Below are positions 250 to 9,746 of a stretch of 9,746 nt of DNA, one piece after another; the stretch's first letter is position 1, and each line of letters opens with the position of its first letter. The position numbers and the translations under genes are program-made. Origin of the DNA: Candidatus Delongbacteria bacterium (GTDB lineage: Bacteria > Delongbacteria > UBA4055). The stretch lies in the NCBI GenBank assembly GCA_027858795.1, contig JAQICF010000057.1, positions 1 through 9,746 of the forward strand, given 5' to 3'. The notes below the pieces were generated by a model. That model was not told where the DNA came from, ran no database searches, and was given only the letters and a program-made list of their open reading frames with translations.

Positions 250-277
250 ATCCTGAATTTATTTCAGGATTTTTTTT
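250..277 (+). repeat. Hairpin with T-tract (terminator-like) at arsR 3' end
   Basis: Arms ATCCTGAA (250-257) and TTCAGGAT (263-270) form a perfect 8-bp stem with a 5-nt loop, followed on the plus strand by a run of Ts. This has the form of an intrinsic terminator for plus-strand transcription, but no plus-strand gene precedes it. For the minus-strand operon the U-tract is on the wrong side, so it would be only a hairpin between arsR and the permease. It may be a dispersed repeat rather than a working terminator. Confidence 0.5.
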
Positions 278-605
278 AACAAATATTTGTTCTATTTGTA
301 CCTATTGCTGTATGTTTATCTGCATTAAAAGTCTTATCCTTTAATCTTTCCACAAACTCCAATGCTTCTTTGATGAAAGCTTTATCTTCTCTATTTAATG
401 AATAATTTATATATTTTTCAGATCTTTCCTGAACTACCAAACCTGCTTCTTTTAATATTTTCAGATGATTTGATATTGTAGCAGTTGCATAACCGATAAT
501 AGAAGTAATTTCACAGACGCACATTGACTTTACTTCCAGCATCTTAACTATCCTTAATCTTGAATCATCACTTAATGCTTTAAAAACTTTTAAATATTTT
601 TCCAT
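276..605 (-). CDS. ArsR/SmtB-family metal-responsive repressor
   Basis: A 109-residue winged-helix protein of usual ArsR length. The N-terminus KALSDDSRLRIVKML and recognition segment TATISNHLKILKEAGLV (about 41-57) are classic ArsR/SmtB features, followed by a short wing. C29-V30-C31 in SMCVCEI corresponds to the thiol motif of E. coli ArsR (ELCVCDLC), but the third cysteine there is Thr34 here; the last residue, C109, could be a further ligand. This suggests a thiol-coordinated effector such as As(III), Sb(III) or Cd(II); I see no His/Asp zinc site in the last helix. It should repress its own operon and release DNA on metal binding. It lies 42 bp after the CDF exporter and before a permease, with AGGA upstream of the ATG. 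Family confident, inducer inferred. Confidence 0.93.
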   Translation of the reverse strand: MEKYLKVFKALSDDSRLRIVKMLEVKSMCVCEITSIIGYATATISNHLKILKEAGLVVQERSEKYINYSLNREDKAFIKEALEFVERLKDKTFNADKHTAIGTNRTNIC

Positions 606-629
606 TATGTTTCCTCATTTATCAGTTTG

Positions 630-645
630 AATTCAGACCTGAATT
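630..645. repeat. Inverted repeat between CDF exporter and arsR
   Basis: Perfect 7-bp arms AATTCAG and CTGAATT are separated by AC, within the 42-bp gap between the exporter stop and the arsR start. There is no T-tract, so it is not a terminator. It could be an intercistronic mRNA hairpin or a second regulator-binding site. Confidence 0.4.
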
Positions 646-647
646 AT

Positions 648-1541
648 TTAACTACATAATTCATCTTTACCACACAACATTTCATCTTCAAGTTGAAGTG
701 AAGTATGTTCAATGTGATAATCATGCATAAGCATGTTATTTATTTCTTTTATTATCTTATCATTACTCGGTTTGATTTTCGGATCGATCAAAACATGTGC
801 TGATAAAAATATTTCATTAGAATTTATAGACCAAATATGAACTTCATGTGCACTCTGAACTCCAGTTATATTACAGATCGAATCATGAACTTTGTCGAAT
901 TCAATTCCTTCAGGTACACCTTGCATAAAAATATGAAGACTACTTTTTATAATTTCAAATCCACTGTAGAAAATCATTAAAGCTATAAAGATACTTATGA
1001 TTACATCAAGAATAACTAAACCGGTGAAATAGATTACTATACCTGAAATTATTACAACAACTGAAGATAATGTATCATAAAATAAATGCTGGTAGGCAGC
1101 TTTCATATTTAAGTTTTTATCTTTTTCTTTATTCAGAATTAATATTGAAATTGCATTACCTGCAAGTCCTATAGTTGCTATCCCCATCATAAGACCAATA
1201 GAAATATTTTCATCTGGTTGGGTTAATCTTTCTATTGCGTGATAAATAATTAGAACACCGATAGCCCATAAAGAGAGCGAATTTATCAGAGCCGTAAATA
1301 TTTCAAACCTTTTCAGACCGAAAGTATGCTTTTTATTTGGTTTCTTCTGAGAAAATTTTTCTCCAAACCATCCTAATATCAAAGATAAAACATCTGAAAA
1401 ATTATGCCCAGCATCAGATAGTAATGCTAAAGACCCTGAGTAAATACCTCCAATGTATTCTGCTACAGTAATAATAACATTTAATAAGATCGTCCAACCT
1501 ATTTTTTTTGTATTGTGTCCGTGATCGTGATGATGTCCCAT
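648..1541 (-). CDS. Cation diffusion facilitator (CDF) heavy-metal efflux transporter, CzcD/ZitB type
   Basis: A full-length 297-residue CDF protein that exports divalent cations across the inner membrane in exchange for protons. The N-terminus is His-rich (HHHDHGH, 3-9). Membrane segment 2 has H46xxxD50 in SDAGHNFSD and segment 5 has H152xxxD156 in HLFYD; a His/Asp pair in both positions is typical of the zinc-selective ZnT/ZitB/CzcD branch. A cytoplasmic domain (about 205-290) contains HEVHIWSI, H249 and HIEHTSLQLE, as in the regulatory zinc-binding fold. Two cysteines lie near the C-terminus (C290, C296). The start is supported by AGGTGG five bases before the ATG. It is first in the minus-strand operon, ahead of arsR and a permease, downstream of a palindromic putative operator. 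Confidence 0.95.
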   Translation of the reverse strand: MGHHHDHGHNTKKIGWTILLNVIITVAEYIGGIYSGSLALLSDAGHNFSDVLSLILGWFGEKFSQKKPNKKHTFGLKRFEIFTALINSLSLWAIGVLIIYHAIERLTQPDENISIGLMMGIATIGLAGNAISILILNKEKDKNLNMKAAYQHLFYDTLSSVVVIISGIVIYFTGLVILDVIISIFIALMIFYSGFEIIKSSLHIFMQGVPEGIEFDKVHDSICNITGVQSAHEVHIWSINSNEIFLSAHVLIDPKIKPSNDKIIKEINNMLMHDYHIEHTSLQLEDEMLCGKDELCS

Positions 1542-1616: not shown

Positions 1617-2252
1617 TTACCATTTCATCGGATTATTTATAATGTATTGTCGGACTGCAAATAATTGTTTTTCTGTTCTGATGATTCTGTCATGGAATGA
1701 TCTTTGCCATTTGAAATATTTGTTGTTTAATTTTTCTCTTACTTCTTTCGTAATCACAGATTTATATGCGTGAATCGTTTTCGATAATATCATTTTTGAT
1801 CGATCATCGGGTTGCATTTGTGAACGATTTTGGGGATGCATGTTGGAACGCGATTGGGGATGCATTCCTGCATCCCCTACGGTAGGGGTCGCAGGAATGC
1901 GACCCCAATTTACGTTACAATCCCCGTTTACGTTACAAACCCCGTTTACATTACAACCCCCGTTTTTATCATTTACGGTTATATTTGCATTTTCCACAAT
2001 AATGATTCCATGTATATGATTGGGCATTATTATAAATTCATCCAGTATGATGTTTTTATGATAATCCGGAATAGTGTACCATATATCATTTGCAATATTT
2101 CCAATTTTTGATAATACCATTTTTCCATTTTCAACCTTTCCGAATTTATGTTCCATATCTTCAGTATTTATTGTTATAAAATAATATCCTTCTTTGTCAT
2201 AATTATATGAATTTAATCTATTTGATTTTCTTTCAATACTTCTTTTGAACAT
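1617..2252 (-). CDS. REP-associated tyrosine transposase (RAYT), Y1/HUH family
   Basis: A 211-residue single-strand endonuclease of the TnpA_REP/RAYT branch of the IS200-type Y1 transposases. The N-terminus NRLNSYNYDKEGYYFITI and the metal-binding HUH motif in MPNHIHGIIIV (H79, H81) are intact. FKWQRSFHDRIIR (180-192) precedes the catalytic tyrosine Y203 in VRQYIINNP. Such proteins nick and move or maintain GTAG-footed REP hairpins and are usually single-copy and immobile. There is no TnpB partner and no obvious IS200/IS605 ends. Residues 97-154, between the HUH motif and the tyrosine helix, form an unusual linker of in-frame repeats and a REP pair. The start has AGGA upstream. The protein ends soon after NNPMKW, slightly short for the family. 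All catalytic residues are present, so it is probably active. Confidence 0.93.
   Translation of the reverse strand: MFKRSIERKSNRLNSYNYDKEGYYFITINTEDMEHKFGKVENGKMVLSKIGNIANDIWYTIPDYHKNIILDEFIIMPNHIHGIIIVENANITVNDKNGGCNVNGVCNVNGDCNVNWGRIPATPTVGDAGMHPQSRSNMHPQNRSQMQPDDRSKMILSKTIHAYKSVITKEVREKLNNKYFKWQRSFHDRIIRTEKQLFAVRQYIINNPMKW
1791..1862 (-). repeat. 24-bp in-frame tandem repeat, three units, inside the RAYT gene
   Basis: Three 24-bp units encode the octapeptides HPQSRSNM, HPQNRSQM and QPDDRSKM (residues 131-154). Copies one and two are close; the third is more diverged. The unit length keeps the reading frame open. Confidence 0.85.
1856..1906. repeat. Inverted pair of GTAG-footed REP palindromes inside the RAYT gene
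   Basis: On the plus strand, 1882-1906 is GTAG merging into a 9-bp stem GGGGTCGCA / TGCGACCCC with loop GGAA. On the minus strand, 1880-1856 has the same layout with stem GGGGATGCA / TGCATCCCC and the same loop. The two feet face each other one base apart, giving a REP/inverse-REP (BIME-like) pair. It is translated on the minus strand as RIPATPTVGDAGMHP, so the repeats sit in the transposase linker without breaking the frame. Confidence 0.9.
1911..1964 (-). repeat. 18-bp in-frame tandem repeat, three units, inside the RAYT gene
   Basis: Three 18-bp units encode NGGCNV, NGVCNV and NGDCNV (residues 97-102, 103-108 and 109-114). The core TTTACGTTACAA resembles the TTTACGTAAC motif of the 19-bp repeats at 4356-4413, beside another REP pair. 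Confidence 0.8.
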
Positions 2253-2361: not shown

Positions 2362-2393
2362 AAAAAAGGGGACGATAAGAAATCGTCCCCTAC
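2362..2393 (-). terminator. REP-type hairpin acting as likely intrinsic terminator
   Basis: On the minus strand GTAG leads into a 9-bp GC-rich stem, GGGGACGAT / ATCGTCCCC with a 5-nt loop (2368-2390), immediately followed by six Ts (2362-2367). It lies about 45 bp past the stop of the secreted-protein gene, in the right orientation to end its transcript. It has the GTAG foot of the local REP family, so a REP element seems to have been adopted as a terminator. Confidence 0.75.
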
Positions 2394-2416: not shown

Positions 2417-2442
2417 GAGACGTAGCGGTGCTACGTCTTTAC
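2417..2442 (-). repeat. REP-like palindrome with GTAA foot at a stop codon
   Basis: A 9-bp stem AGACGTAGC / GCTACGTCT (2418-2426 with 2430-2438) has a 3-nt loop. On the minus strand it is preceded by GTAA, whose TAA is the stop codon of the secreted-protein gene (2439-2441). The GTAAAGACG lead-in is shared with the hairpin at 6372-6396. Confidence 0.65.
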
Positions 2443-4235
2443 CGGAAATCGTATGTATTTTTATAATTTATATCATATTTTTTCTCAACAATCGGTTGAA
2501 TTAATTCCCACATTGTTCCAGTATGAATTCCATCTCTGTAAACATTTTGTAAAAAGTTAGTCATGTATTGGTGAGATACTCTATCGTTAAGTGTTGGTGT
2601 ATTTCCAGTATCATTATTCATACTTAGTTCAGAATTAACAACTGAGCACTCCCAACTTTGAAGTTCAATCATTGTATTATTTATACCAAGTGATTTAATT
2701 TCTGCACCTGCAACAATATCTGTGTGTGTATATGTTGGGTTAATAAAATTAATTTGACCAACATATAGTTGAGTTTGATTAGCTGTACTTAGATAATTAA
2801 TACCACTTCCTTCATTAGTCCCTCCAAATATATTATTATCTACTTGTACTAACAAATCTGCAACCTCTACCCAACCATTTAATGCTTGATCAATTGGAAC
2901 TCCGTCCATAATATTTGAATATTGTTTCATACCTTCAATTTGATTGGCGTCTGCACTAAAATATTTAGTTATGTGAACCATAACAACATCAACAGGAACT
3001 CTACCATCGTTCATTTCACCGCAACGACCTTCGCCCATTCTATCTAAACCAAAATTATCATAACTATGTAAAGCAGCGTTGTTTAAATTTCGAGTACCAT
3101 CTGTATCTAATCCTAAAAAATCTCCAGGTAAAGGTAACATAGCAACATCAAATAAACCACTTCCAGAATATCCATCAACTTTATGTTCATCGAATCTATT
3201 AACAGCGATTGAATCTGCAGCATTTTCTTTATATGTAACAGGAACTTTAAATTCTTGTGTCATAAAGTCTGCTTCTAAATCTGTAAAACGTAATGTGTAA
3301 ACAGTACCGATTGCATCTCCTTGTGCACCAGCAGGAACATGTTTAAATAAAAAGTTACCATCATCAATAGTTGTCGTATTTGCTAAAACTGAATCATTTA
3401 ACATTAAAGCAACGTTAACATTTCCAACAGTACTTTTAGCAGGATTATTACCTAAATTATAATCTAATCCACTAAATACAGTTCCACTAATATCTTTAAC
3501 ATTAGCAGGATAACTTAAGAAATGATCAACCATTTGTTCAGTATAAACACCAGGAACTGTTAAAGTAAGAGTATCTTTATATGTTTCAAAAGAACCATCT
3601 CCAGTAATTGTAACAATCCAATCATGTTTATCGCCAGGATTAAAATAATCTTTTGTAACTGTTTCAACTTCTTCTTCTAAGGATGGTGCAGGTAAAGCTC
3701 TACTTACAACTTGACCAGGAATTTCATTATTAATTTCCATTCCATCATTATAAACAAATCTTTTAACAATTTGACTTCCATCATTTAATTTTAATTGATA
3801 GAAATACATACCATCTGCAATAGTTGCAGGATTAAAAATAGCAGTCATATAATCAGTGTGATTTTGAACATCGATATTTCCAGAAACATCTTGACCTTTG
3901 ATATTTTTAAATGAAATTTGAGCATCAGTACCACCATAAACTAAATTATTGTTAATAACTATTGCAGTACCTGTAGCATTACTTGTAGTTGGAGTGTCAA
4001 TACCAGAAGTTAAATATAAATCAACTGCGTATCTACCAGAACTTAATGTATTAGTTTTAATTACATCCATACTTAATGTGTTGTTTTTATACTCAACCTC
4101 AAGACCAGCAGGCGCATTAGTCATATTAGGCATATAAGTAGAACCAATAACTCTTAAGTTATTCTCAGCAGCATTAGCTACACCAATGATTGGGAACAAT
4201 AATATCAACATTAAACATATTATAAGATTTTTCAT
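2439..4235 (-). CDS. Secreted multidomain protein with carboxypeptidase-regulatory-like domain, function unknown
   Basis: A 598-residue exported protein. Residues 1-22 form a signal peptide ending ANA before AENN. Residues 130-163 (GMYFYQLKLNDGSQIVKRF) resemble the last strands of FlgD-like Ig folds. Residues 247-303, from DISGTVF to GNFLFKHVPAG, resemble a carboxypeptidase-regulatory-like beta-sandwich. Residues 402-472 hold two stretches reminiscent of dockerin repeats (NDGRVPVDVVMVHITKYF and NGWVEVADLLVQVDNNIFG), each shorter or more diverged than classical Ca-binding repeats. C405 and C530 are the only cysteines after the signal peptide and could form a disulfide. The remaining C-terminus is unrecognised. 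AGGA precedes the ATG. The mature region favours TTA for leucine and A/T-ending codons more than the efflux genes do, suggesting high expression or a different origin. A REP-type terminator follows. Role unknown; the domain matches are from memory. Confidence 0.85.
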   Translation of the reverse strand: MKNLIICLMLILLFPIIGVANAAENNLRVIGSTYMPNMTNAPAGLEVEYKNNTLSMDVIKTNTLSSGRYAVDLYLTSGIDTPTTSNATGTAIVINNNLVYGGTDAQISFKNIKGQDVSGNIDVQNHTDYMTAIFNPATIADGMYFYQLKLNDGSQIVKRFVYNDGMEINNEIPGQVVSRALPAPSLEEEVETVTKDYFNPGDKHDWIVTITGDGSFETYKDTLTLTVPGVYTEQMVDHFLSYPANVKDISGTVFSGLDYNLGNNPAKSTVGNVNVALMLNDSVLANTTTIDDGNFLFKHVPAGAQGDAIGTVYTLRFTDLEADFMTQEFKVPVTYKENAADSIAVNRFDEHKVDGYSGSGLFDVAMLPLPGDFLGLDTDGTRNLNNAALHSYDNFGLDRMGEGRCGEMNDGRVPVDVVMVHITKYFSADANQIEGMKQYSNIMDGVPIDQALNGWVEVADLLVQVDNNIFGGTNEGSGINYLSTANQTQLYVGQINFINPTYTHTDIVAGAEIKSLGINNTMIELQSWECSVVNSELSMNNDTGNTPTLNDRVSHQYMTNFLQNVYRDGIHTGTMWELIQPIVEKKYDINYKNTYDFR

Positions 4236-4325: not shown

Positions 4326-4353
4326 CCCGTAGGGGTCGCAGGAATGCGACCCC
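4326..4353 (+). repeat. GTAG-footed REP palindrome, left copy of an exact inverted pair
   Basis: CCC, then GTAG, then a 9-bp stem GGGGTCGCA / TGCGACCCC with loop GGAA (stem 4332-4340 with 4345-4353). The stem, loop and foot are identical to 1882-1906 inside the RAYT gene. The reverse complement of all 28 bases occurs at 4432-4459. Confidence 0.9.
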
Positions 4354-4355
4354 AA

Positions 4356-4413
4356 ACGTAACGTTTGTGCATTTACGTAACGTTTATGCATTTACGTAAC
4401 AAACCATGTATTT
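4356..4413 (+). repeat. 19-bp tandem repeat between the REP pair
   Basis: Units at 4356-4374 and 4375-4393 differ at one position (ACGTAACGTTT, G or A, TGCATTT). A third, diverged unit covers 4394-4413. They fill most of the 78-bp spacer of the REP pair. Confidence 0.75.
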
Positions 4414-4431
4414 ACGAAATACGTTAAAAAA

Positions 4432-4459
4432 GGGGTCGCATTCCTGCGACCCCTACGGG
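4432..4459 (-). repeat. GTAG-footed REP palindrome, right copy of an exact inverted pair
   Basis: Exact reverse complement of 4326-4353: stem 4432-4440 with 4445-4453, loop TTCC on the plus strand, and the GTAG foot read on the minus strand at 4456-4453. The feet point outwards, unlike the pair at 1856-1906, where they face each other. The last four bases are shared with the first unit of the 40-bp array. Confidence 0.9.
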
Positions 4460-4654
4460 CGTTCGTTATTTCGTGTCAACGATACAATGAAAAAACGGGC
4501 GTTTGTTATTTCGTGTCAACGATACAATGAAAAAACGGGCATTTGTTATTTCGTGTCAACGATACAATGAAAAAACGGGTGGTTTGTTATTTCGTGTCAA
4601 CGATACATTGAAAAAACGGGGGTTTGTGGTTTCGTTTTTACGGTTTTACAAAAA
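4456..4654 (+). repeat. 40-bp direct tandem array, four units plus a degenerate fifth
   Basis: Units at 4456-4495, 4496-4535 and 4536-4575 (40 bp) and 4576-4616 (41 bp) are nearly identical. A degraded fifth copy starts at 4617. Each has the core TTATTTCGTGTCAACGATAC followed by ATGAAAAAACGGG. Units abut directly with no spacers. Every unit carries an ATG followed by an A-run, like the start of the TetR gene about 120 bp downstream. Confidence 0.92.
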
Positions 4655-4680: not shown

Positions 4681-4736
4681 TTAAACTATCAACCAGTTGG
4701 TTAAACTATGTAATTAAACCGATGGGTTAAACTATG
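4681..4736 (+). promoter_or_regulatory. Repeated motif and inverted repeats before the TetR gene, candidate operator
   Basis: TTAAACTAT occurs three times (4681, 4701, 4727), the last forming the TetR start context TTAAACTATG. AACCAGTTGGTT (4691-4702) is a near-palindrome with 5-bp arms. TTAAACC-GAT-GGGTTAA (4714-4730) is an inverted repeat with one mismatch per arm. TetR-family regulators usually bind inverted repeats upstream of their own gene, so autoregulation here is plausible but inferred. The second copy reads ATG then TAA, a null start. Confidence 0.45.
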
Positions 4737-5342
4737 AAAAAAGATATTTCCACAGAAGAAAAAATCATAAAAGCTGCCGGTCAGGCATTTAAATCCAAAG
4801 GTTATGCAGGCGCAAGAATGCAGGAAATCGCGGATAGTGCCGGTATAAACAAAGCTATGCTTCATTACTATTTCAGGTCAAAGAAATTACTCTTTGACAA
4901 AATATTTATCAAACTGATGAATTCTTTTTTAGCGAATATTATAGCAACACTTAATTCAGATAATACTTGGGATGAAATATTAACCGATCTGTCTGAGAAA
5001 CTTTTTGCCTTCATTTCACAAAACAGAGACATCCCTCTTTTTCTGGTAAATGAATTACATAAGAACCCTGATTTTTTCACTGAGCAATTATTAAAATTTA
5101 AAAAAATAAGTAATTCATCGTTCTTTTCAAAAATAGATGAAGAAGGCAAAAAAGGAAATATTATCATAGCGGATCCATTGCAGATATTAGTTCATGTTAT
5201 CTCCGGAATGATGTACCCGGCCATAGCTGAACCAATTATAAGTTCTATCGGCAGCTTCAGAGAAAAAGATTTCGATAACTTTTTATCTCAGAGAAAAGAT
5301 ATCGTTCCTAAAATAATAATAGAATACTTAAAGAAGGTTTAA
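4734..5342 (+). CDS. TetR/AcrR-family transcriptional regulator
   Basis: A 202-residue TetR-type repressor of usual length. The N-terminal helix-turn-helix spans about 8-55: EKIIKAAGQAFKSKGYAG, then RMQEIADSAGINKAMLHYYF and RSKKLLFDKIF. The HYYF motif of the recognition helix is typical of the family. The C-terminal helical half is the variable ligand-binding and dimerisation domain. The gene precedes the membrane-fusion protein by only 2 bp and so opens the efflux operon, as CecR (YbiH) does for ybhGFSR in E. coli. Its likely job is to repress the operon until the exporter's substrate appears. An in-frame stop (4728-4730) just before the ATG fixes the start; the Shine-Dalgarno site is weak. 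The ligand cannot be inferred. Confidence 0.93.
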   Translation: MKKDISTEEKIIKAAGQAFKSKGYAGARMQEIADSAGINKAMLHYYFRSKKLLFDKIFIKLMNSFLANIIATLNSDNTWDEILTDLSEKLFAFISQNRDIPLFLVNELHKNPDFFTEQLLKFKKISNSSFFSKIDEEGKKGNIIIADPLQILVHVISGMMYPAIAEPIISSIGSFREKDFDNFLSQRKDIVPKIIIEYLKKV

Positions 5343-5344
5343 CT

Positions 5345-6241
5345 ATGAAAATGAAATTAATAACATTAGTGATCTTAGGTATAATTTTTGTCAGCTGCAC
5401 AAAAACAGAGATAACTGCTGATGCCTACGGAAATTTTGAAGCTGTTGAAACAATTATTTCTGCAGAAGCTCAGGGAAAGTTATTAAAATTCAATATCAAC
5501 GAAGGTGAAGATGTTAAGATCGGTCAAAGTATCGGTCTGATAGATACTTCAATGCTGGTGCTGCAGAGAAATGAGATATCGGCTAATCTGAAAGCATTAA
5601 AATTTAAACTTCCTGATGTTTCGAAAGATATTAAGGTACTTGAACAGCAGATAGCAAATATTGAGGTAGATAGAAAGAGAACCGAGAACCTTCTTGAAAA
5701 GAAAGCTGCAACCCAGAAACAATATGATGATATCATTGCTCAGATGGAAGTATTGAAAAAACAGGTCACCGCAGCAAAATACAAAGAATCGGTACAATCG
5801 AAAGCAATTCTGTCAGAGATCGAACCTATCGAAGCTAAACTTAAGCAAATAAATTATTCTATCTCAAAGTGCAGGATAATTAATCCTGTTCCGGGTACTG
5901 TGATATCAAAATTCGTTGAGGAAAGTGAGATCGTTTCTTTTGGGAAACCGCTTTATAAGATAGCCGACCTTGAAAATATAATTCTCAGAGTTTATGTGTC
6001 CGCACCTCAGATGATAAACATTAAGCTCGGTGCAGAAGTGAAAGTTTTAGTTGATGCTCCAAACGATTCAATGAAAGAATATACCGGTACTATCTCCTGG
6101 ATCAGCTCAAAAGCTGAATTCACTCCGAAGATAATTCAAACAAAGGAAGAAAGAACTAATCTTGTCTACGCAGTGAAAATAGCAGTAAAAAATGATGGCG
6201 GCCTAAAACTCGGCATGCCCGGCGAAGTATACTTTCCGTAA
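5345..6241 (+). CDS. HlyD/YbhG-like membrane-fusion (periplasmic adaptor) lipoprotein
   Basis: A 298-residue adaptor linking an inner-membrane ABC exporter to the outer envelope. The N-terminus is a lipoprotein signal with lipobox FVSC and acylation at C18. A biotinyl-lipoyl half (about 30-70, AEAQGKLLKFNINEGEDVKIGQ) is followed by an alpha-helical hairpin (about 72-175) rich in heptad-like Leu/Ile/Glu/Lys, the second lipoyl half (GTVISKFVEESEIVSFGKPL, about 184-203) and a beta-barrel domain. KAEFTPKIIQTKEERTNLVYAVKI (256-279, given here as a key stretch) is shared with YbhG-type adaptors. AAGG precedes the ATG, 2 bp after the TetR stop. The terminal GMPGEVYFP looks complete, and its TAA stop lies in the GTAA foot of a REP hairpin. 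Lipid anchoring differs from the cleaved or membrane-anchored N-terminus of many adaptors. Confidence 0.9.
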   Translation: MKMKLITLVILGIIFVSCTKTEITADAYGNFEAVETIISAEAQGKLLKFNINEGEDVKIGQSIGLIDTSMLVLQRNEISANLKALKFKLPDVSKDIKVLEQQIANIEVDRKRTENLLEKKAATQKQYDDIIAQMEVLKKQVTAAKYKESVQSKAILSEIEPIEAKLKQINYSISKCRIINPVPGTVISKFVEESEIVSFGKPLYKIADLENIILRVYVSAPQMINIKLGAEVKVLVDAPNDSMKEYTGTISWISSKAEFTPKIIQTKEERTNLVYAVKIAVKNDGGLKLGMPGEVYFP

Positions 6242-6261
6242 GGAACGCAGGAATGCGTTCC
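6238..6261 (+). repeat. REP-like palindrome with GTAA foot at the adaptor gene's stop
   Basis: GTAA (6238-6241) is followed by an 8-bp stem GGAACGCA / TGCGTTCC with loop GGAA, the same loop as the GTAG-footed elements. The TAA is the stop codon of the adaptor gene. Confidence 0.7.
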
Positions 6262-6283
6262 CATCAGAGCAGAGGACACATAG

Positions 6284-6311
6284 TATAGATGAACCCATGT
6301 GTTCATCTATA
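6284..6311. repeat. 11-bp-stem hairpin in the adaptor-ATPase gap
   Basis: Perfect arms TATAGATGAAC and GTTCATCTATA flank a 6-nt loop CCATGT. It has no T-tract. It is the longest perfect stem in the window. Confidence 0.75.
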
Positions 6312-6339
6312 GGGATTATCCCAACGGGATACAACCCCC
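6312..6339. repeat. Nested hairpin in the adaptor-ATPase gap
   Basis: Arms TATCCC (6317-6322) and GGGATA (6326-6331) have a 3-nt loop AAC. Outer GGG (6312-6314) can pair with CCC (6335-6337) across an internal loop. Confidence 0.5.
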
Positions 6340-6343
6340 ATAA

Positions 6344-6363
6344 CCACAGGTTTCAACCTGTGG
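6344..6363. repeat. 9-bp-stem hairpin in the adaptor-ATPase gap
   Basis: Arms CCACAGGTT (6344-6352) and AACCTGTGG (6355-6363) are perfect complements around a minimal TC loop. There is no T-tract, so it is not an intrinsic terminator. Confidence 0.7.
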
Positions 6364-6371
6364 AGACCAAC

Positions 6372-6396
6372 GTAAAGACGCCCTACACGGGTGTCT
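6372..6396 (+). repeat. REP-like hairpin with GTAA foot before the first ABC gene
   Basis: GTAA leads into an 8-bp stem AGACGCCC / GGGTGTCT (6376-6383 with 6389-6396) containing one G-T pair, with loop TACAC. The foot and first stem bases match those of 2417-2442. It ends 15 bp before the chosen ATG of the ATPase gene and could limit ribosome access there. Confidence 0.6.
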
Positions 6397-6411
6397 CGAA
6401 GAAAAAACAAC

Positions 6412-7335
6412 ATGAAATCTATCGAGATCAAACATATCAGCAAATCCTACGGTGACATCACGGCCATTGACGATCTCTCATTCGAAGTGAACAAAGGTGA
6501 GATATTCGGTCTTATCGGTCCCGACGGTTCGGGAAAAACTTCAATTTTCAGAATACTTACAACTGTTACTTTACCTGACAAAGGTGAAGCTTTCGTTCAG
6601 GGATTGAATGTTCGTACTGATTTTAAAAAGATCAGAAAACTGATCGGATATATGCCCGGAAGATTTTCACTGTATCAGGACTTAACTGTAGAAGAGAACT
6701 TGAAATTTTATTCATCAGTGTTCAATACTTCTATTGCTGACAACTATGAACTTATTAAGGATATTTATTCTCAGCTGGAACCGTTCAAAGATCGTAGAGC
6801 AGGTAAACTTTCAGGAGGAATGAAGCAAAAGTTAGCTTTGAGTTGTGCATTGATCCATAGACCTGAAGTTTTATTTCTGGATGAACCTACTACGGGAGTG
6901 GATGCTGTTTCGAGGAAGGAATTCTGGGAAATGCTTGACAGATTGAGAAAAACAGGGATAACGATACTTGTTTCAACACCTTACATGGATGAAGCTGCAA
7001 AATGTGATAGAATAGCTTTGATAAAAGATGGTAAAATTCTGAACATAGATACTCCTGACAATATTTCTAGCTCTTTTCAGAGAACACTTTACGCTGTAAG
7101 ATCAGCAGATACACATAAGTTGATAAAGGATCTCAGAGACTGGAATAAAACTCATTCCAGCTTTGCATTTGGAGATAATATCCATTTATCTCTGAAAGAT
7201 GATTATATAACGGAAGAAGATATTACAGCTTATATCAGTAGCAAGGAACATTCCGATATCTTTGTAAAAAAAATATTACCCGGAATTGAAGATACTTTCA
7301 TTGAGTTACTTAAGCAGGAAGATAATCATGATTAA
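6412..7335 (+). CDS. ABC exporter ATP-binding protein, YbhF N-half-like (degenerate Q- and H-loops)
   Basis: A 307-residue ATPase powering the ABC-2 exporter encoded downstream. Seen: Walker A GPDGSGKT (36-43), signature LSGGMKQ (133-139), Walker B VLFLDEP (153-159) with catalytic E158, and D-loop TGVD. The Q-loop glutamine is replaced by G83 in GYMPGRFSLY, and the switch histidine by P190 in STPYMDEA. GPDG in Walker A and the overall pattern fit the N-terminal half of E. coli YbhF, which fuses two ATPases. A C-terminal extension (about 225-307) continues past the core. An in-frame GTG at 6391 would add seven residues but lies in a REP hairpin, so the ATG leading MKSIEIKHISKSYG is preferred. 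The gene overlaps the next by 8 bp. Confidence 0.92.
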   Translation: MKSIEIKHISKSYGDITAIDDLSFEVNKGEIFGLIGPDGSGKTSIFRILTTVTLPDKGEAFVQGLNVRTDFKKIRKLIGYMPGRFSLYQDLTVEENLKFYSSVFNTSIADNYELIKDIYSQLEPFKDRRAGKLSGGMKQKLALSCALIHRPEVLFLDEPTTGVDAVSRKEFWEMLDRLRKTGITILVSTPYMDEAAKCDRIALIKDGKILNIDTPDNISSSFQRTLYAVRSADTHKLIKDLRDWNKTHSSFAFGDNIHLSLKDDYITEEDITAYISSKEHSDIFVKKILPGIEDTFIELLKQEDNHD

Positions 7336-8065
7336 AGCAGTTACTGTAGATAAACTTACTAAAAAATTCGGAGATTTCGTAGCAACTGATGAGATCACTT
7401 TCGAAGTTGACAGAGGTGAGATATTCGGTTTCCTTGGAGCTAACGGAGCAGGAAAAACAACTGCAATTAAGATGCTCTGTGGACTGCTCACCCCTACTTA
7501 TGGTGAAGCAACTGTCGCAGGTTTCGACATTTATAAACAGACTGAAAAAATAAAGCAGAACATAGGTTACATGAGCCAGAAATTCTCACTCTATGAAGAT
7601 CTTACACTGTTCGAAAATATCCGTTTCTACGGAGGTATCTATGGTCTTTCCGGTAAAAAAATAAAAGAAAAAGCTAAAAATATTCTCAACAAGCTTAATA
7701 TTAGTGAATTAGCCAATAAGAAAGTAAAATCTCTACCTCTCGGTTGGAAACAGAAACTTGCTTTCTCTCTGTCTATGATACATGAACCTGATATTATCTT
7801 TCTTGATGAACCGACCGGCGGTGTCGATCCTATCACGAGAAGACAGTTCTGGGAGTTGATCTATGAAGCTGCAGATAATGGAACTACGATATTCGTGACT
7901 ACACACTACATGGATGAAGCTGAATACTGCAACAGAGTTTCGATCATGGTCGATGGTAAAATTGTCGCCCTGGATAAACCTTCTGAACTTAAAAAACAAT
8001 ATTCTGCCGATTCAATGGATGGAGTATTTCAAATACTTGCAAGGGGAACCTCTGTAAAGGGGTAG
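7328..8065 (+). CDS. ABC exporter ATP-binding protein, YbhF C-half-like (degenerate signature)
   Basis: A 245-residue ATPase, partner of the preceding one. Walker A GANGAGKT (37-44), Q-loop Q84 in GYMSQKFSLY, Walker B IIFLDEP (156-162) with E161, and switch H193 in TTHYMDEA are canonical. The signature is LPLGWKQ (136-142) instead of LSGGxxQ, as I recall for the C-terminal half of YbhF-type ATPases. Its ATG lies inside the end of the previous gene (8-bp overlap, ATGATTAA) with AGGA upstream, so translation is probably coupled; a longer in-frame start at 7286 would extend into the neighbour and lacks family-like sequence. Together with the first ATPase it should form a heterodimer under the two permeases. 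Confidence 0.93.
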   Translation: MIKAVTVDKLTKKFGDFVATDEITFEVDRGEIFGFLGANGAGKTTAIKMLCGLLTPTYGEATVAGFDIYKQTEKIKQNIGYMSQKFSLYEDLTLFENIRFYGGIYGLSGKKIKEKAKNILNKLNISELANKKVKSLPLGWKQKLAFSLSMIHEPDIIFLDEPTGGVDPITRRQFWELIYEAADNGTTIFVTTHYMDEAEYCNRVSIMVDGKIVALDKPSELKKQYSADSMDGVFQILARGTSVKG

Positions 8066-8069
8066 AAAT

Positions 8070-8111
8070 ATGATATTTCAATTTAAACAACTAATAGATA
8101 ATTTGAGATGA
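8070..8111 (+). promoter_or_regulatory. 13-codon mini-ORF duplicating the start of the next permease gene
   Basis: MIFQFKQLIDNLR is encoded from 8070. Its TGA overlaps the permease ATG as ATGA (8108-8111). The first 23 bases (8070-8092) match 8108-8130 at 22 positions, so this is a partial copy of the permease start, period 38 bp. The mini-ORF has a good Shine-Dalgarno site (AAAGGGG about 8 bases upstream), whereas the permease ATG has only TTGAG. Translation of the permease may therefore depend on termination-reinitiation at ATGA. Function is inferred. Confidence 0.55.
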
Positions 8112-9217
8112 TATTTCAATTCAAACAACTTGTAGCATTCGTCAAAAAAGAATTCTACCATATTTTCAGAGATGGAAGGACTTTGCTTATCCTGTTCGGA
8201 ATTCCGGTCATGGATGTTATTCTCTTTGGTTTTGCTTTGACCAATGAAGTTAAAAATGCAGAGATAGCTGTAATTGATTACTCCAGGGATCTGTATTCTA
8301 TAGAAATTACAAACAAGATCATGTCCTCTAAATATTTCAGTACTATTCAATACTTTAACAAATATGATGACATTGAGACTTCTTTCAAAAATGGTTCTGC
8401 TCAGATAGCTGTGATATTTCCTGAAGGTTTTGCAAATAAACTTGACCATGAAAATAAGGCTGATATTCAGATAATTGCGGATGCCTCAAATATAAACACT
8501 GCTATAATGCTGACAAATTATACAACTTCCATAATAAATGACTATCAAACTGAGATAAATTCAAGCGTACCTTTGCTTATTCAGCCTAAAGTGAGAATGA
8601 TCTATAATCCGGAACTTAGATCTGTTTTCGTATTTATTCCAGGCGTAATGGCTCTGGTACTGATGATAGTTTCAGCTATGTTGACTTCGATAACTCTTGC
8701 CAGAGAAAAAGAACTCGGTACTATGGAACTGCTGATGATAACTCCTTTGCGACCAATTACAATAATAATCGGTAAAGTTCTCCCCTATTTGGTCCTTTCA
8801 GTTATCAACAGCGGAATAATCATCGGAATGGGTATGTATGTCTTCAATATGCCTATGAACGGGAATATATTTGTTTTACTTGCAGAATCAACTCTATACG
8901 CTATTACAGCGCTTTCTCTTGGTATTTTAATATCAACGAAGGCAGAGACTCAACAAACAGCTATGTTCGTATCTCTGATAGGCCTAATGCTCCCTACGAT
9001 ACTTCTTACCGGTTTCATCTTCCCTGTTGAAAGTCTTCCTAAAATTCTTCAATATGTTTCAGCAGCTATCCCGGCAACCTGGTTCATTGAAATTATTAAG
9101 AGTATTATGATAAAAGGTCTCGGCATTGAATATTTCTGGAAACCAACACTTGTTCTTATAGGAATGACCATATTCTTTATTACGCTTAGTTTAAAAAATT
9201 ATAAATCCAGAATGTAA
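8108..9217 (+). CDS. ABC-2 type exporter permease, YbhS-like
   Basis: A 369-residue membrane subunit of the ABC2_membrane_3 type. The N-terminus FVKKEFYHIFRDGRTLLILF leads into the first membrane helix (about 25-44), followed by a large extracytoplasmic domain (about 50-172, including AVIDYSRD) and five more hydrophobic segments from about 174 to 360. The cytoplasmic coupling motif LAREKELGTMELLMITPLRP (197-216) and GFIFPVESLPKILQYVSAAIP (302-322) are hallmarks of YbhS/YbhR-type permeases. It should form the channel with the next permease, driven by the two ATPases and joined to the lipoprotein adaptor. The start follows family alignment, since the same peptide opens the 13-codon mini-ORF just upstream. 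Substrate unknown; relatives export drugs, cations or other small molecules. Confidence 0.93.
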   Translation: MIFQFKQLVAFVKKEFYHIFRDGRTLLILFGIPVMDVILFGFALTNEVKNAEIAVIDYSRDLYSIEITNKIMSSKYFSTIQYFNKYDDIETSFKNGSAQIAVIFPEGFANKLDHENKADIQIIADASNINTAIMLTNYTTSIINDYQTEINSSVPLLIQPKVRMIYNPELRSVFVFIPGVMALVLMIVSAMLTSITLAREKELGTMELLMITPLRPITIIIGKVLPYLVLSVINSGIIIGMGMYVFNMPMNGNIFVLLAESTLYAITALSLGILISTKAETQQTAMFVSLIGLMLPTILLTGFIFPVESLPKILQYVSAAIPATWFIEIIKSIMIKGLGIEYFWKPTLVLIGMTIFFITLSLKNYKSRM

Positions 9218-9247
9218 CTTTAAATGACAGGATGTAACTTTAAATGA
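9208..9247 (+). repeat. 20-bp tandem duplication at the junction of the two permease genes
   Basis: Copies 9208-9227 and 9228-9247 match at 19 of 20 positions; the core is ATGTAACTTTAAATGA. The first copy contains the last codons and TAA stop of the first permease, the second contains the ATG of the next. Between them a 7-codon frame (MTGCNFK, 9224-9247) ends in TGA overlapping the ATG at 9244. The one change turns CAGAATG into CAGGATG, giving the second copy an AGGA that could serve as ribosome-binding site. Confidence 0.85.
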
Positions 9248-9746
9248 AAAGAATATTTTACATAGTTCAGAAAGAATTCATTCAGATCTTCAGAAATAAA
9301 GCTCTTTTACCTTTGATTTTCATTGTTCCGATTTTTCAAACGATAATTTTATCATATGCGGCTACCTATGAGATCAAGGATATTAAAATGAGCATTGTGG
9401 ATCATGACCTATCTTCGACTTCAAGGAATCTTGTAAATAAATTTCAGGGGTCTGACTTTTTTATTGTAGAGAATTTTGATTTTTCAGTTAAAAATTCGTT
9501 GAAAAAATTTGACAGTAATGAAAGTGATATAATCATTGTTCTACCTGAGGGGCTTGAAACTGATCTTATGAAATATAAATCAGGAGAAATTCAGATCCTT
9601 GTTAATGCAATAAACAATCAAAAGGCAGAGCTTGCATTTTTCTATGCGGGATCTATCATCGGAGATTTCAATCAAGATATAGCTATGAAATTTCTTCCTA
9701 CTTCTGCTGAGAATAATTTTAAGAGTATTAATGTGATCCCCAACTA
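9244..9746 (+). CDS. ABC-2 type exporter permease, YbhR-like, N-terminal part (3' end outside window)
   Basis: The 167 visible residues begin MKRIFYIVQKEFIQIFRNKA, run into a first membrane helix (LLPLIFIVPIFQTIILSYA) and continue in an extracytoplasmic domain (YEIKDIKMSIVDHDLSSTSR to the edge). This layout parallels the preceding permease (KKEFYHIFRDGR, then helix, then AVIDYSRD), as for YbhR beside YbhS, so the two should form a heterodimeric channel. Later helices are beyond the window. An AGGA (9229-9232) precedes the ATG by 11 bases, and a 7-codon mini-ORF ends on it in an ATGA overlap. A complete copy should be about 370 residues. Confidence 0.9.
   Translation, partial: MKRIFYIVQKEFIQIFRNKALLPLIFIVPIFQTIILSYAATYEIKDIKMSIVDHDLSSTSRNLVNKFQGSDFFIVENFDFSVKNSLKKFDSNESDIIIVLPEGLETDLMKYKSGEIQILVNAINNQKAELAFFYAGSIIGDFNQDIAMKFLPTSAENNFKSINVIPN

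Follow-up and report, generated by a model that had tools for sequence, protein, structure and literature searches.

The window, as we call the whole stretch of 9,746 nucleotides analyzed here, carries a RAYT (TnpA_REP) gene on its minus strand, within which lie two GTAG-footed hairpins, together with further REPs outside the gene. The features, with REPs assigned to families A, B and C, are the following (L119, L120 and L129 being loci of related genomes described below):

1617-2252, minus strand: RAYT/TnpA_REP gene, 211 aa; an open reading frame assigned by motifs, an NCBIfam profile, a match to 4er8 and fold
1803-1970, minus strand: linker insertion of 168 nt (residues 95-150), missing in the relative P0003 and predicted to be disordered
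1791-1866, minus strand: tandem array with a repeat length of 24 nt at the linker (MHPQSRSN...), by eye composed of half-REP-like units
1909-1965, minus strand: tandem array with a repeat length of 18 nt, also within the linker (CNVNGV...)
1856-1880, minus strand: REP, family C variant, with GTAG foot, perfect stem and 4-nt loop, in frame, encoding the peptide VGDAGMHP
1882-1906, plus strand: REP of family C with GTAG foot, perfect stem and 4-nt loop, its foot opposing that of 1856-1880
4329-4353, plus strand: intergenic REP of family C, 25/25 identical to 1882-1906
4432-4456, minus strand: intergenic REP, 25/25 identical to 1882-1906 and inverted, forming a feet-outward pair with 4329-4353
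6238-6262, plus strand: diverged family C relative with foot GTAA and 5 mismatches, stem pairing retained, overlapping the HlyD-type gene at its end
2368-2393, minus strand: REP of family B, upstream of the RAYT gene at a distance of 116 nt, 26/26 identical to a REP within the RAYT of L119
218-243, minus strand: REP of family A, 26/26 identical to a REP within the RAYTs of L129 and L120

Among the neighboring genes, an ArsR-type regulator adjoins a cation-efflux gene (276-1541, minus strand), and a 598-aa ORF at 2439-4235 (minus strand) has a signal-like N terminus by eye and no Pfam match at 1e-3; a footed hairpin of a different type (GTAAAGACGTAGCACCGCTACGTCT; 2418-2442, minus strand) lies at its 3′ end. 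Across 4455-4635 a 40-nt unit is repeated in tandem about 4.5 times, beginning where the REP at 4432-4456 has its foot. The plus-strand stretch 4734-9744 codes for a TetR-type regulator and a HlyD-type adaptor (Pfam) and, downstream of the HlyD-type gene, for two ATP-binding proteins and two membrane proteins recognized solely by eye, the apparent makings of an ABC export operon.

The sequence-only reading had reported two GTAG-footed hairpins with facing feet, in frame within the transposase linker, and our analysis confirmed them at 1856-1880 (minus strand, 5′-GTAGGGGATGCAGGAATGCATCCCC-3′) and 1882-1906 (plus strand, 5′-GTAGGGGTCGCAGGAATGCGACCCC-3′). Each has a 9-bp perfect stem that starts with the final G of its foot; the two are separated by one base, feet inward, and differ at 4 bases, which amount to two compensated base pairs. 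The pair spans 51 nt in frame and reads WGRIPATPTVGDAGMHPQ on the coding strand, with part of a codon adjoining at either end. The reported identity of the plus-strand hairpin to an intergenic copy at 4326-4353 also held, over 25 of 25 positions, with the copy now placed at 4329-4353; the inverted copy at 4432-4456 had gone unmentioned there. A chance palindrome in a low-complexity linker was considered, the linker being repetitive and its repeat content, with arrays at 1791-1866 and 1909-1965 besides the REP pair, exceeding what had first been noted. However, folding of the pair region as single-stranded DNA yielded −27 kcal/mol and z = −9.5 (DNA parameters), which was equaled by none of 200 shuffles; exact copies start at 4329 and 4432; and the entire window contained 9 GT[AG][GA]-footed hairpins compared to a mean of 2.0 and a maximum of 7 in 20 shuffles. 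The linker REP pair is thus not a chance product, and we regard the chance explanation as refuted, also in view of the excess over synonymous recoding in the survey below. Among the 9 footed hairpins, 9466-9497 resembles chance and 1883-1913 is 1882-1906 read off the opposite strand; the REP at 218-243 falls outside the 9 because its stem fails the search rule.

The encoded protein fits RAYT/TnpA_REP subclass 2.4 by motifs, profile and fold. Its HuH motif MPNHIH (residues 76-81) agrees with the subclass pattern NH[IFV]H, with M76, P77, H79 and H81 invariant and N78 and I80 nearly invariant across 40 homologues. Tyr 203 opens the sequence YIINNP, matching YIxNNP, and WQ is present at residues 182-183. 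The GTAG-contact positions given for the E. coli enzyme (W94, Q95, E/D100, H/R101 and R104; PMC6006769) have counterparts in W182, Q183, D188, R189 and R192, assigned by spacing from W. The variable β3-αC insertion of the subclass is represented in the predicted model by the low-confidence residues 91-150 between a strand (79-86) and a helix (155-175), and linker length varied across the 40-sequence alignment. In-frame REPs lie between HuH and Y, and a GT[AG]G-footed REP occurs within 1000 nt of the gene (2368-2393), but it belongs to family B and not to the linker's family. The NCBIfam profile NF047646 (REP_Tyr_transpos) fell short of its cut-off of 80 with 56.6 bits, the match being split over two stretches, the pattern that a split domain would give; a Pfam search at 1e-3 returned no match. 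We found 759 homologues at E ≤ 1e-5 among 1012 candidates; a precomputed PF01797 label is attached to about half (56) of the 120 listed, and several are named, for example, RayT. A profile search matched 4er8, the E. coli TnpA_REP-REP complex, by sequence (E 6.1e-05). The best 30 Foldseek rows consisted of IS608, ISDra2, Sulfolobus and REP transposases, pointing to an HUH nuclease fold, with 23 of them at E 1.5e-4 to 1e-3 and prob 1.00 and with ISDra2, IS608 and 4er8 leading at E of about 1.5e-4; the query TM was only 0.37-0.43 for a model searched with its floppy linker included. That model (mean pLDDT 78.7; 118 residues at ≥90) combined a confident core with a block of pLDDT 41-57 across residues 91-150, and the linker is accordingly predicted to be disordered.

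Comparison with close relatives supported the earlier suggestion that the linker was built through REP insertion. P0003, the protein encoded in locus L111 of genome G050, shares 94 of 151 aligned residues with the window RAYT, and the alignment contains a single gap of exactly 56 residues corresponding to residues 95-150. Its motifs are DHIH and WE where the window has NHIH and WQ, so that it is perhaps not a strict subclass 2.4 enzyme. A second relative, P0002 (104/161 identical), has a shorter linker starting VGNAGMH, which resembles one REP of the window kind as judged by the protein sequence alone. Other REP-like hairpins occupy the linker position in loci L115 (truncated frame), L119, L123 and L129 of G050 and in L112, L116 and L120 of genome G029; those of L119, L129, L120 and L116 form outward-facing REP pairs with a spacer. 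In the presumed orthologues L129 and L120, the REPs were identical at 51 of 52 nt compared to 260 of 330 for the core, and the spacer agreed at 69 of 88 aligned positions with an additional 39-nt length difference. Nine within-genome pairs of first REPs agreed at only 10-20 of 26 positions, and the REP of L115 agreed with that of the window at 20 of 26. In this small related set, the linker REP tracks the RAYT lineage and not the host.

The families were also followed through 13 genomes from the phylum of L058 (Delongbacteria), allowing up to 3 mismatches. Family C was listed at 4 places in G050 (two of them both strands of one palindromic place) and at 5 in G029, all inexact, and at 0 places in the eleven other genomes; the exact element of the window was found in none of the 13. 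Family B, linker copies included, occurred at 20 places in G050, 13 in G029, 2 in genome G041 and 24 in genome G051, and at none in the nine other genomes of the phylum at this tolerance. In G041 (contig C108, 7104-9988, locus L222), family-B REPs at 7104 and 9963 (2-3 mismatches) surround the RAYT gene of L114 (7556-8254), whose linker carries hairpins of a type different from the flanking family. In the window, the nearest family-C copy lies 2.1 kb from the RAYT gene. No family-C REP was detected in the 400-bp flanks of the gene, where the best match had 9 mismatches of 22 and was no better than that of one third of other genes' flanks.

A wider survey started from the best 80 of 492 relatives among at least 588 pattern matches, to which loci were added from the phylum of L058, from the Flavobacterium family (23 of 199 genomes matching) and from Nostocaceae (74 of 118 genomes matching), with at most 30 loci each for the latter two. 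The final set, obtained by one extraction rule and not a random sample, comprised 106 distinct genes including the window; 60 genes from the 80 best loci passed this stricter rule, and an earlier, looser rule had located the linker in 76 of the 80. A footed linker hairpin was present in 82 of the 106 genes (the window counted) compared to 2.2 expected with synonymous recoding, and absent under the same rule from 24. The control, an equal-length stretch ending at the HuH motif, contained a footed hairpin in 1 gene of 106. Of the linkers of the window and 76 loci, 77 in all, 62 beat synonymous recoding at p ≤ 0.02 and 15 did not. Feet lay in reading frames 0, 1 and 2 in 46, 15 and 0 cases, respectively; the corresponding counts were 51, 17 and 0 for plus-strand feet in the 106-gene survey and 35, 12 and 0 for double-foot elements. 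Frame 2, in which GTAG would read TAG, was thus never used.

Near-identical copies of the linker element were found within about 400 bp of the gene for 41 of 76 footed linker hairpins, leaving 35 without, and for 40 of the 76 elements no more than 5% of other genes' flanks matched equally well. Copies of linker elements in their own loci totaled 51 compared to 8.9 expected by swapping, with at least one copy in 31 of 74 loci. A more general statement, that the linker matches its flanks, was cut back to these 41 of 76 cases, the window not being among them. The idea that the linker REP mirrors the commonest REP of its genome was likewise dropped: in genome G017 the exact palindrome occurred once among 21 same-type and 40 double-foot places. 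In several linkers, low-complexity runs adjoin half-REPs or are built of them (27 Gln in L151, nine copies of DHGAS in L187, an NVETRHM-like run in L051 and eight copies of SHLQ in L032), and the linker seems prone to tandem expansion.

Double-foot elements, collected as 28-mers with required feet and at most 2 mismatches, bear on what is being kept in the linker. Of 47 such elements (34 distinct sequences), 43 were perfect over 13 pairs and 4 had one mismatch, and all four Watson-Crick types occurred at stem pairs 9-12. Three palindromes were found in two reading frames each. The palindromes of L003 and L029 are identical at all 28 nt and lie in different frames, in genes with 77% identity of the core protein and 5 of 15 fourfold sites alike; in both genomes, the searches turned up no other double-foot place. 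These comparisons suggest that, in the relatives, the hairpin is kept as DNA rather than for its encoded peptide; as judged from the sequences, the linker palindrome is kept as symmetric DNA, indifferent to frame. A role of the hairpin in mRNA, through control of translation or stability, or selection for the peptide itself would draw on the strong predicted hairpin (DNA parameters), but we consider it very unlikely. The two frames give unrelated peptides and the stretch is predicted to be disordered. Furthermore, the 423 cells of pairs 5-13 contained 4 mismatches, including one A.C and no coding-strand G.T, within a set limited to elements with up to 2 mismatches. An RNA stem should tolerate G.U, and the absence of G.T is why we put the mRNA-structure reading aside.

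To see how far the linker copy depends on other copies in the genome, 18 genomes were searched, picked for linker elements of or near the GCATGC-centered type. At ≤3 mismatches, the linker element was found at one place in 7 genomes, at none in two and at several in nine; the footless 22-nt stem, at ≤1 mismatch, also gave one place in each of those 7 genomes and 0 in controls. By coordinates, the single places were the linker copies. A wider double-foot pattern revealed no further place in G003, G016 and G032. In G013 it gave a single match, which was poorly palindromic, and in G025 and G037 one REP each from a different family; G009 contained three other places, one of them with the arms of the linker element and a different loop. 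A second copy of the linker element was therefore not found in 6 of the 18 genomes by these fixed-length patterns, which single-foot REPs with other loops could escape, in genomes that are perhaps incomplete. In the 6 lone-copy genes, the palindrome was perfect over 13 pairs in 5, and that of L046 missed just the last base pair. The sequence-only reading had held that a linker conserved where the genome has no such repeats would speak against it, and the 6 distant genomes come near to this situation; we read them as upkeep without spread and not as a sign that the linker is not REP-derived.

One alternative is that the linker REP is selected as a DNA element: the gene would bring along its own substrate, which could act as self-target, feedback site or seed for refounding REPs after transfer to a new host. 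Its presence in most surveyed genes of many phyla, as judged by record title, the perfect or nearly perfect palindromes of the lone-copy genes, the identical DNA in different frames and the REPs of L129 and L120, which resemble each other more closely than the cores of these two genes do, are all consistent with this explanation. However, the hairpin-less relatives (P0003 in L111 and the 24 of 106 genes) are open frames, template switching could keep a palindrome perfect without selection, and the copy searches have the limits given above; on balance, we find selection for the DNA element possible but unlikely. A broader form of it might fit the sequence comparisons and is offered tentatively: in this RAYT subclass, the gene would keep a near-perfect DNA copy of its own target in any frame, even as the last in its genome, so that the target moves along with the enzyme and REP families could be founded anew wherever the two reach a new host.

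Another explanation, in line with what Quentin et al. suggest for the protein, is that REPs simply insert neutrally into a linker that permits it, perfection reflecting nothing more than recent insertion. In-frame REPs have been reported in many other genes (Di Nocera et al. 2013, PMC3733652), and element distance at 70-80% core identity was bimodal, as wholesale replacement would give: 30 of 91 pairs differed at ≤6 of 26 positions and 57 at ≥11, although these pairs, taken by core identity from 30 genes, are not independent and multi-hairpin linkers may be mismatched. Neutral insertion is nevertheless doubtful in our judgment, given the concentration at one site (82 of 106 genes compared to 1 of 106 for the neighboring stretch of the same genes) and the 6 genomes where a second copy was not found.

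We consider it probable that the disordered linker between β3 and αC of the subclass-2.4-type RAYT is a landing place for REPs, which insert there, replace one another and are kept near-perfect as DNA. Single-stranded REPs, presumably recognized by the RAYT or a sister enzyme, would enter the linker, drop out of it and be exchanged for others, and frames would stay open after insertion because the linker is disordered; as it can also be empty, the protein seems to tolerate insertions. Changes in one arm would be copied to the other through hairpin template switching, re-insertion or both, keeping the palindromes near-perfect. Template switching is described as making and mending perfect hairpins (PMC8794818), and together with insertion by the enzyme would explain perfection, turnover as seen in the bimodal distances, and indifference to frame. 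In the linker of L065, from 9557, the palindrome extends 11 bases past both REP feet into ordinary linker, giving perfect 24-bp arms, which is what fold-back or template-switch synthesis would leave. The survey frequency, the near-perfect double-foot palindromes and their occurrence in two frames, the empty site of P0003, the low pLDDT of the linker, the 41 flank copies and the REP identity of L129 and L120 support this explanation. Against it stand the lack of family C within 400 bp of the window gene, whose flanking REP (2368-2393) is of family B and carried by another RAYT in a related genome; the 24 genes without a footed hairpin and the 35 of 76 hairpins without a near-identical flank copy; the feet-inward pair of the window compared to the outward pairs of L119, L129, L120 and L116; and the possibility that P0003, with DHIH and WE, belongs outside strict subclass 2.4. 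In the lone-copy genomes, re-insertion would have to proceed without a present donor because no second copy was found. Insertion of REPs into the linker is itself something we infer by comparing present-day genes.

Our comparison adds a handle on the persistence of REP families and on enzyme-target matching. Through its linker copy, a RAYT can be assigned a REP family: in the small Delongbacteria set, the one orthologous pair shares REPs and same-genome paralogues do not. Many enzyme-target pairs might therefore be read from genomes to infer a recognition code. In addition, genomes with a lone linker copy make selection and mutational upkeep distinguishable by test.

With respect to known systems, the sequence-only reading was supported in its RAYT-type protein and in a linker that looks REP-built. 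The in-gene REP habit is of a kind already in print for subclass 2.4. Quentin et al. (2018, PMC6006769), in the parts drawn on here, describe in-frame REP insertions in subclass 2.4 tnpA_REP genes as a unique and predominant feature of the subclass, generally located between HuH and Y with the frame preserved, assign each tnpA_REP its own REP family and consider the insertion region peripheral. Among the open-license PMC papers that our searches brought up, no title or abstract beginning mentioned lone-copy linker REPs or their occurrence in two frames, which is weak evidence of absence. The window resembles subclass 2.4 as described there in its NHIH, WQ and YIxNNP motifs, in the highly variable β3-αC insertion, in the in-frame REPs between HuH and Y and in the GTAG-footed REP near the gene. 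It differs in having two single-foot REPs with feet inward instead of one double-foot REP, in its additional tandem arrays, in a flanking REP from another family and in its nearest named relatives, which are Candidatus Delongbacteria. The intragenic GTAG/CGTC REPs and the Rickettsia palindromic elements, as presented in PMC3733652, are likewise short in-frame palindromes, perhaps tolerated in loops, and serve as an analogue only: they occur in many unrelated genes, whereas the carrier here is a gene of the REP-handling enzyme type, at a single site across relatives of many phyla. Finally, as in the REPtron/REPIN system outlined in PMC8266576 (see also PMC3116915), REPs surround a transposase gene and an inverted intergenic pair is present (4329-4456); unlike that system, the window has a REP pair inside the gene, and its family-C intergenic pair lies 2.1 kb away.
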